Assembly: GCA_947501625.1 (NCBI GenBank)
Contig: CANMWN010000004.1
Location: 124,001-188,000, forward strand
Length of the DNA stretch: 64,000 nt
Source: an uncultured Flavobacteriaceae bacterium
GTDB taxonomy: Bacteria; Bacteroidota; Bacteroidia; Flavobacteriales; Flavobacteriaceae
Direction: 5' to 3'
The notes beneath the pieces were generated by a model. The model had not been told where the DNA came from. It saw nothing but the letters and a program-made list of their open reading frames with translations, and searched no databases. The position numbers and the translations under genes are program-made. Shown piece by piece: positions 45,462 through 47,483 of the stretch (position 1 is its first letter; the number at the start of each line of letters is the position of its first letter).

Positions 45462-45494
45462 TTTGGAAACATCAAAAATTATTTGATATATTTG
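45462..45494 (+). promoter_or_regulatory. promoter of the SPFH operon
   Basis: TTTG (45462-45465), 21 bases, TATATTTG (45487-45494), then 35 bases to the ATG. The -7 box is embedded in the first of the 11-bp repeats. Confidence 0.75.
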
Positions 45495-45528
45495 TGATAT
45501 CATTTTAATATCATACTAAATCAAATAT
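45485..45528 (+). repeat. tandem 11-bp repeats over promoter and leader of the SPFH operon
   Basis: Consecutive 11-base units read GATATATTTGT (45485), GATATCATTTT (45496), AATATCATACT (45507) and a weaker AAATCAAATAT (45518), ending one base before the ATG. ATATCAT is exact in units 2 and 3. An 11-bp period puts each unit on one face of the helix, as operators for ribbon-helix-helix or similar dimers often do. The last gene of the operon encodes such a protein. Confidence 0.55.
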
Positions 45529-45529
45529 T

Positions 45530-46390
45530 ATGACACAAGAAAAAAATATAAAAGTTTCCAATGGATATTTAATGTTATTTATCTTTTTTGGATTTATAGC
45601 ATTATTAATATTCGGAATAATGCAAGAAAATCCATTGATAATAATACCAGCAATTTTATTATTATTAATTACATTACCAGGATTTTTCTTAGTAAATCCA
45701 AATACTTCAAAAGTGTTATTACTTTTCGGAAAGTATATTGGAACAGTTAGAGAGAATGGTTTTTATTGGGCAAATCCACTATATAGAAAACGTTCAATAT
45801 CCTTGAGAGCTAGCAACTTTGATAGCGAACGTGTAAAAGTAAACGACAAGTTAGGTAACCCAATAATGATTAGTACCATCCTAGTATGGAAGGTTAGTGA
45901 TACTTTTAAAGCTGCTTTTGATGTGGATAACTATGAAAATTTTGTTCGTGTTCAGTCTGATGCTGCAGTTAGAAAATTAGCAAGTTTATATCCTTATGAC
46001 AACTTTGAAGATGAAGGAAAAGAAGAGGAAATCACTTTACGTGCTAGTGTAAATGAAGTAAGTGAAGCATTAGAAGAAGAACTTTCTGAACGCTTAGCTA
46101 TGGCTGGAATTGAAGTACTTGAAGCACGTATAGGTTATCTTGCCTACGCTCAAGAAATCGCAAACGCTATGTTGAAGCGTCAACAAGCAACAGCTATTAT
46201 TGCTGCGAGACATAAAATCGTTGAAGGCGCAGTGAGCATGGTTGAAATGGCTTTAGACGAATTAAATAAAAAAGAAATAGTTGAATTGGATGAAGAGCGA
46301 AAAGCTGCAATGGTAAGTAACTTAATGGTTATTTTATGTTCGGATAAAGAAGCTTCACCAGTACTTAATACAGGAACTTTAAGTCACTAG
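45530..46390 (+). CDS. SPFH (band 7) domain membrane protein
   Basis: This is a 286-residue protein. Two hydrophobic segments at the N-terminus (about 13-31 and 35-55) are followed by an SPFH domain (about 55-240: NPNTSKVLLLFGKYIGTVRENGFYWANPLY, SISLRASNFDSERVKVNDKLGNP, ILVWKVSDTFKAAFDV). A helical part follows with ARIGYLAYAQEIANAMLKRQQA and a C-terminal KEASPVLNTGTL. SPFH proteins form large ring-shaped membrane assemblies that scaffold proteases or lipids. No NfeD partner is adjacent. It opens an operon of six genes, most of them very small. Confidence 0.92.
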   Translation: MTQEKNIKVSNGYLMLFIFFGFIALLIFGIMQENPLIIIPAILLLLITLPGFFLVNPNTSKVLLLFGKYIGTVRENGFYWANPLYRKRSISLRASNFDSERVKVNDKLGNPIMISTILVWKVSDTFKAAFDVDNYENFVRVQSDAAVRKLASLYPYDNFEDEGKEEEITLRASVNEVSEALEEELSERLAMAGIEVLEARIGYLAYAQEIANAMLKRQQATAIIAARHKIVEGAVSMVEMALDELNKKEIVELDEERKAAMVSNLMVILCSDKEASPVLNTGTLSH

Positions 46391-46394
46391 AATT

Positions 46395-46553
46395 ATGGCA
46401 CAATATAAAGTATTGACAAAAAAGTTATTTAAAAAAGAAGATACTTTTCTTGACGCAGTTAACAATGAAGCAAGAAGCGGATGGAAAGTAATAAGCGTTG
46501 GCTACTACGAAGGTCATATTTCAAAAGTGTTTTTAGAAAAGTCTAATTATTAA
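46395..46553 (+). CDS. 52-residue protein, DUF4177-like
   Basis: This small soluble protein begins MAQYKVLTKKLFKKEDTF and contains NEARSGWKVISVGYYEG. The pattern YKV(L/V)...(L/V)N..A..GW.V resembles DUF4177 proteins, small ferredoxin-like units of unknown function. It begins five bases after the SPFH stop and is followed three bases after its own stop by a 17-codon frame. Spacing and reading frame support a real gene although it is short. Confidence 0.7.
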   Translation: MAQYKVLTKKLFKKEDTFLDAVNNEARSGWKVISVGYYEGHISKVFLEKSNY

Positions 46554-46556
46554 AAG

Positions 46557-46610
46557 ATGATTTGGATCATATTAGCCATATTAATATCAGTTGTAGAATT
46601 ATTATTTTAA
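46557..46610 (+). CDS. 17-residue hydrophobic microprotein (candidate)
   Basis: The frame ATG ATT TGG ATC ... TTT TAA encodes MIWIILAILISVVELLF, a single membrane-spanning stretch with one Glu. It fills exactly the gap between the 52-residue gene and the PH-like gene (three and four bases either side). The tight fit and strong hydrophobicity argue for a real membrane peptide. Its size means chance cannot be ruled out. Confidence 0.4.
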   Translation: MIWIILAILISVVELLF

Positions 46611-46614
46611 CACT

Positions 46615-47133
46615 ATGAAAGTTTTTGTAGAAGAACAGCGTTTTAGAAAGTGGTTTTTAGTACCAATTATTGCACTTCCGCTCATTGGAATTATAATTTT
46701 ATCGGTGCAAAAAAATAATGAACTTCAAACTTCAAACTCTGAAAGTTTTTGGGGGATATTAATTAGTGTATCAATTATCTTGGCTGTTATTATTTTTATT
46801 GTTTCTATGAAACTAACAACTAAAGTAGATGAAAAAGGCATCCATTATCAATTTTATCCAATCCATTTTGTAAAAAAATTTATTGATTGGAGAGACATTG
46901 ATAAGTGCTATATAAGAAAATACAATTCATTACGAGAATTTCATGGTTACGGATATAGAATTCGTCCTTTTGGAAAAAATAAAGGTGTAGCCATAAATGT
47001 AAGCGGAAATTATGGACTACAACTTGAGTTAAAAAATGGCAAGAGGTTGTTAATTGGAACTCAAAAACAAGAACAATTAAAAATAACTTTAGAAGTTTAT
47101 AAAGAAAAATATAATAAAAATGAACAACAATAA
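46615..47133 (+). CDS. membrane protein with PH-like domain
   Basis: This 172-residue protein has two membrane segments (about 13-30 and 45-66) followed by a PH-like beta domain on the cytoplasmic side (about 70-165: LTTKVDEKGIHYQFYPIHFV, FIDWRDIDKCYIRKYN, LQLELKNGKRLLIGTQKQEQL). The last part matches the pattern of bacterial PH domains, where strands are followed by one helix. It is in the SPFH operon and ends 14 bases into the next small gene. Function unknown. Confidence 0.75.
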   Translation: MKVFVEEQRFRKWFLVPIIALPLIGIIILSVQKNNELQTSNSESFWGILISVSIILAVIIFIVSMKLTTKVDEKGIHYQFYPIHFVKKFIDWRDIDKCYIRKYNSLREFHGYGYRIRPFGKNKGVAINVSGNYGLQLELKNGKRLLIGTQKQEQLKITLEVYKEKYNKNEQQ

Positions 47134-47272
47134 AGGTTTAAGTATAGGTATTGGAGTTGCAATTGGAACCGCAATTGGAGTAGCAATGAATAATATAGCT
47201 GTAGGCGTAGTTGTGGGTGTTGCTTTAGGTGCTGCATATGCAGCTATTTTAAACAAAAAATCAAAAAAATAG
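47120..47272 (+). CDS. 50-residue glycine-zipper membrane microprotein
   Basis: The translation MNNNKGLSIGIGVAIGTAIG is followed by VAMNNIAVGVVVGVALGAAY and a basic tail (NKKSKK). Gly every four residues in two hydrophobic stretches is a glycine zipper, which packs helices tightly in membranes. The start overlaps the PH-like gene by 14 bases. It is short, but composition, codon pattern and operon position all support it. Confidence 0.65.
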   Translation: MNNNKGLSIGIGVAIGTAIGVAMNNIAVGVVVGVALGAAYAAILNKKSKK

Positions 47273-47284
47273 TTTAATTGAATT

Positions 47285-47464
47285 ATGGCAAAGAAAAAAG
47301 CATTTGCATTACGTATTAATGAAGATATGCTTAAAGCAGTTGAAAAATGGGCTGCTGATGAGTTTAGATCTACCAATGGTCAATTGGAATGGATGCTAAA
47401 CAAATGTCTAAAAGATGCTAATAGACTACCTAAAAAGAAAGATGAAAAGAAAGAGGATAAATAA
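47285..47464 (+). CDS. Arc-type ribbon-helix-helix DNA-binding protein
   Basis: This 59-residue protein has a beta strand (KKAFALRINE) followed by two helices (EDMLKAVEKWAADEFRSTNG, QLEWMLNKCLKDANRL), the Arc/MetJ ribbon-helix-helix layout. The Lys-rich C-terminus is disordered. It would bind DNA as a dimer of dimers. No toxin gene is adjacent, so it is not an obvious antitoxin. The 11-bp repeats at the operon promoter are a plausible target. Its last codons and stop form the left arm and loop of the operon terminator. Confidence 0.82.
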   Translation: MAKKKAFALRINEDMLKAVEKWAADEFRSTNGQLEWMLNKCLKDANRLPKKKDEKKEDK

Positions 47465-47483
47465 ATTATCCTCTTTCTTTTTT
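47445..47483 (+). terminator. terminator overlapping the ribbon-helix-helix gene
   Basis: AAAAGAAAGAGGATAA (47445-47460) pairs perfectly over 16 bases with TTATCCTCTTTCTTTT (47466-47481), loop ATAAA, then Ts. The left arm encodes the C-terminal residues and the loop holds the stop codon. Confidence 0.88.

Follow-up and report, generated by a model that had tools for sequence, protein, structure and literature searches.

A tandem palindromic element over the promoter of an SPFH operon as a probable autoregulatory operator of the operon's ribbon-helix-helix protein

The promoter of an SPFH operon in the window (the whole stretch of 64,000 nucleotides analysed here) carries a conserved 19-bp element. 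This element appears to be the autoregulatory operator of the operon, bound by the operon's own ribbon-helix-helix (RHH) protein and used for repression; from the sequence comparisons described below, we assign this reading a probability of roughly 0.88. Since the 19-letter element, near-constant even between very distant bacteria, is lost alongside the RHH gene, the RHH protein very probably represses its own operon.

The SPFH operon and its ribbon-helix-helix protein

The operon lies on the plus strand and begins with a gene for an SPFH/Band 7 membrane protein of 286 aa (45530–46390; Pfam PF01145, E 9e-23). This is followed by genes for a 52-aa protein with weak DUF4177 similarity (46395–46553; the match lies below the curated cut-off), a 172-aa protein with hydrophobic N-terminal stretches and no curated family (46615–47133), a 50-aa glycine-rich hydrophobic protein (47120–47272) and the 59-aa Arc-like RHH protein, the proposed autorepressor (47285–47464). 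A hairpin followed by a U-run at the end of the RHH gene (47446–47483, plus strand; fold z = -6.1) is probably the end of the operon. A divergent S1/P1 nuclease gene is located upstream of the operon and a DUF819 gene after the hairpin. The source genome has a size of 2.66 Mb, and the search with the RHH protein gave Lutibacter species as its nearest named relatives.

Among relatives, the SPFH and RHH genes are constant, and they are adjacent to each other in many genomes; the intervening small-protein genes (46395–47272 in the window) differ in number and kind. A 17-codon ORF, MIWIILAILISVVELLF, was also observed between two operon genes (46558–46611), with a similar short ORF in a relative (L088), and possibly encodes a small membrane peptide. 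Neither Pfam nor PADLOC named a toxin gene among the operon proteins searched, and the constant partner of the RHH protein is the SPFH protein.

Judged from its sequence, the 59-aa protein is an Arc-like member of the ribbon-helix-helix (MetJ/Arc) superfamily. Arc entries led a PDB profile search with the RHH family, and at E <= 0.01 the Pfam family PF03869 (Arc) was matched by 46 of 69 family members and RHH_5 by 42 of 69; the window's own copy was sub-threshold against the Arc/RHH profiles (E 0.025). The KKxFxLR strand, which has an invariant R10, aligns with QFNLR of Arc, the strand with which Arc reads DNA. The predicted structure contains helices at residues 13–25 and 27–44, in blocks with a mean pLDDT above 90. 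A fold search with the monomer model gave weak matches at best (E above 1, Z 2.4–3.0), among them chains of PutA, AtaR, Reg576 and KacTA, which are known RHH proteins.

From an 11-bp repeat array to a 19-bp element

The earlier note had described four 11-bp units, the last one weaker, in front of the SPFH gene and had considered them a likely operator array. The four 11-mers are indeed present at 45485–45495, 45496–45506, 45507–45517 and 45518–45528, with the -7 promoter box (TATATTTG, 45487–45494, plus strand) inside unit 1 and ATATCAT perfect in both units 2 and 3. The 11-bp period was likewise reproduced, lag 11 giving 61% matches as the sole strong lag in the stretch, against 24–46% for other lags. 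The lag-11 score of units 1 to 3 (16/22) is reached by three clusters in the window, where about 1.1 would be expected per 64 kb of AT-rich DNA; shuffling the local 90 nt also yielded it in 1.8% of cases. The array as such is thus a modest signal, slightly above chance.

The conserved element spans 19 bp (45495–45513) and has the form TGATATCA-TTT-TAATATCA, that is, two 8-bp boxes assigned to neither strand, with their centres 11 bp apart. Box 1 (TGATATCA, 45495–45502) is a perfect palindrome, and box 2 (TAATATCA) occupies 45506–45513. The 19-bp core, TGATATCATTTTAATATCA, is far rarer than such an array: the window and the 2.66-Mb genome each have a single copy, and none appeared in sixty simulated 64-kb sequences or in 20,000 leader shuffles. 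A wider regulon in the source genome was considered and rejected, as the two further one-mismatch sites are both inside ORFs.

The array could be retained as an operator in the form of two 8-bp palindromes at 11-bp centre spacing, while the four 11-mers did not hold as functional units: the window's class conserves no more than two boxes, and the register enriched upstream falls on the -7 box. A degenerate box in register upstream (TGATATAT, 45484–45491, plus strand; 6/8 positions), which corresponds to unit 1, overlaps the -7 box, and unit 1 as an independent repeat is largely accounted for by that box. Owing to this overlap, a weak third box at unit 1 is inseparable from the promoter. Unit 4 (AAATCAAATAT, 45518–45528, plus strand) matches the box at 4/8 positions, is not conserved and was not counted as a box.

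Conservation and co-occurrence with the RHH gene

Upstream of SPFH genes of the family and order, TGATATCA-NNN-TRATATCA is kept while the flanks diverge. The exact pattern was found in 26 genomes among 60 relatives and lay at the SPFH gene in 25 of the 26; the remaining site is within an ORF of a genome that lacks both the SPFH and RHH genes. Across 295 genomes of the class, the RHH gene was present in 79 and the exact pattern in 48, all of them RHH-positive, and the pattern occurred in none of the 216 RHH-negative genomes, these counts being of related genomes and hence not of independent events. The class sites whose loci were read are directly upstream of the SPFH gene, and where an RHH-positive promoter has no exact match, its score is mostly 15/16. 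When distinct SPFH promoters were scored, 172 of 178 reached 15–16 of 16, as compared to 0.27% of shuffles, and three of the six lower-scoring promoters were the RHH-less ones. The 178-promoter set was partly fetched with the pattern itself and the 295-genome count was not, which makes the class-wide figure the unbiased one.

In a phylum-wide sample, the exact pattern was present in 15 of 41 RHH-positive genomes versus 4 of 157 others. Among the exact hits seen in RHH-negative genomes, those in G047, G462 and G512 are inside ORFs. Two further such sites were observed. In G386, a genome without an SPFH-linked RHH gene, the same operator (TGATATCATAATGATATCA; L327, 1475–1493) lies 16 bp upstream of a vapBC-like pair, comprising an unrelated RHH antitoxin and a PIN-like toxin, and may be shared or converged with the SPFH operator. 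An exact match at G406:C2:6881-6899 (L328) is intergenic, in a genome without RHH and SPFH genes.

The earlier note had proposed examining whether the pattern is lost in relatives that keep the RHH gene. This comparison was run, and the boxes are kept at RHH-positive SPFH promoters and missing where an SPFH gene has no RHH gene, which supports an autoregulatory operator. In the SPFH-positive, RHH-negative genomes G196, G199 and G293, the promoters scored 9, 12 and 13, the level of shuffled sequences, and TGATATCA was not found at the plasmid SPFH loci of D. proteolyticus, D. radiophilus and Pseudomonas Leaf58, where no RHH gene could be detected. In G325 (L255, 2287 onwards), what is left of the SPFH gene is a fragment interrupted by stops and frameshifts, and the operator and RHH gene are intact; this decay may be recent, because a same-genus relative has an identical operator variant. 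G200 contains a lone RHH gene, preceded at a distance of about 200 bp by boxes that keep the 11-bp register. These losses in RHH-less genomes, together with G325 and G200, indicate that the motif tracks the RHH gene, not the SPFH gene.

Plasmid records contained SPFH relatives from Deinococcota, Actinomycetota, Alphaproteobacteria, Bacillota and Bacteroidales, mostly with the RHH gene after and TGATATCA-type boxes before the SPFH gene, two of them at about 70% GC. Wherever TGATATCA occurred in the 13 plasmid loci examined, it was upstream of the SPFH gene. Weaker boxes were seen at some RHH-positive promoters (Bosea, Rhizobium, two Deinococcus plasmids and L313).

As it is co-occurrence only that points to the target of the RHH protein, the palindromes might be bound by another DNA-binding protein, such as a global or membrane-stress regulator encoded elsewhere, with the RHH protein acting at other sites. 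This explanation appears very unlikely. The genome has no second copy of the site, which fits a local regulator, and the operator is absent at all six RHH-less SPFH loci examined. In addition, the operator and the RHH gene occur together in several phyla that differ in their other regulators, and the lone RHH gene has boxes of its own.

Promoter overlap, proposed repression and known systems

The -7 box abuts the operator and fits the consensus TAnnTTTG; a candidate -33 element, TTTG (45462–45465, plus strand), was recognised by sequence 21 nt before it, and T-T-G is enriched at the corresponding position of 136 aligned promoters. Since the consensus TAnnTTTG is placed at -12 to -5 (PMC9723704), transcription is predicted to start near 45499, inside box 1, and box 2 falls within the predicted 31-nt leader. 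The base-frequency profile of the 136 promoters reads TA-T-(C/A)-TTT-(A/G), followed by a box, an AT-only spacer and a box, and the end of the -7 box is the exact edge of box 1 in 92 of them. The register 11 bp upstream of box 1 is enriched in these promoters, coinciding with the -7 box, and a downstream third box occurs in a minority (11/136); the tandem array of G121 comprises four units.

Promoters from other classes of the phylum commonly carry three boxes spaced by 11 bp, with a perfect central one. Many of these loci show TTGA(C/T)(A/T), 17 bp and then a TATCAT -10 box lying inside the central box; in the form TTGACA-N17-TATCAT, the -10 box is inside the central palindrome. Among box-to-box spacings, 11 bp is the commonest by far (195 pairs; next commonest, 25). 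Across lineages, tandem half-sites at a fixed helical spacing of 11 bp overlap their own promoter at its -7 or -10 box. The promoter type has changed yet its core is still covered by the operator, which argues for promoter occlusion.

The position of box 2 in the predicted leader would also suit a motif that works in RNA, as a 5' leader or translation signal, but this is extremely improbable: the sites are palindromic, the asymmetric box occurs in either orientation, the distance of the element to the start codon varies (about 21–59 nt), and, in lineages that have Shine-Dalgarno sequences, the element lies over the promoter core. Activation is also known for a few RHH proteins, namely AmrZ and H. 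pylori NikR (PMC3325190). The RHH protein binding here as an activator, or aiding RNA polymerase at the SPFH promoter, is nevertheless very unlikely, as the boxes of the window's class lie over the predicted start site and those of other classes over the -10 box. Binding sites of activators are usually found upstream of the -35/-33 region, which also counts against this explanation.

Autorepression by the RHH protein would proceed as described below. The 59-residue protein would form dimers and one dimer would occupy each 8-bp palindromic box; the 11-bp distance between box centres would place neighbouring dimers on one helix face, where they may bind cooperatively. Two or three dimers would thereby lie side by side across the promoter, and as the boxes directly adjoin the -7 element, the predicted transcription start falls within box 1. 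The bound protein would block RNA polymerase, placing SPFH and RHH levels in negative feedback. Repression as the direction of control is judged from the operator position only. With a single-site regulon, the putative inducing signal could be searched for directly with a reporter. A broader idea, which we regard as doubtful, is that the operator, SPFH protein and RHH protein form an ancient, bacteria-wide membrane-sensing module in which the SPFH scaffold, through its state or assembly, would determine the amount of free repressor. If true, the operon would read out membrane condition in a toxin-antitoxin-like circuit, the scaffold replacing the toxin.

RHH autorepression via tandem half-sites is already known as a kind, from RelB and from RHH proteins generally. 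We found no report of the SPFH-RHH operon or the TGATATCA operator in the open literature searched, most subscription journals lying outside it. The bacterial physiology of the SPFH family is poorly understood, and the present analysis suggests that in several phyla a conserved regulatory link at the DNA level ties an SPFH scaffold to a small repressor dedicated to it. The exact bases and the protein can now be named, and a likely function is assigned to a large family of unnamed proteins of 50–70 residues.

In phage P22, two dimers of Arc occupy adjacent half-sites about 11 bp (one helix turn) apart over the promoter. Arc is the closest solved relative by sequence, and both are small RHH proteins. 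The system described here differs in that the box is TGATATCA, each box itself being palindromic, and in that it is chromosomal, with the repressor gene in the regulated operon and three or four boxes in some lineages. References to the Arc structures are given in PMC3325190. RelB, an operon-encoded RHH protein, represses its own promoter via tandem same-face half-sites whose spacing is critical (PMC2812701). Autoregulation by RHH antitoxins (RelB-relO, FitAB and VapBC) shares with the present case an operon-encoded RHH protein and tandem half-sites at the promoter, whereas the partner here is an SPFH membrane protein and no recognised toxin. The relO half-sites are two adjoining 12-bp elements; those here are 8-bp boxes 11 bp apart. 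The SPFH1, SPFH2 and SPFH5 operons have NfeD as a conserved partner, and no such partner was reported for the other SPFH subfamilies (PMC2636767). The present operon resembles the former in having a conserved operon partner, but that partner is a putative DNA-binding RHH protein, not NfeD.
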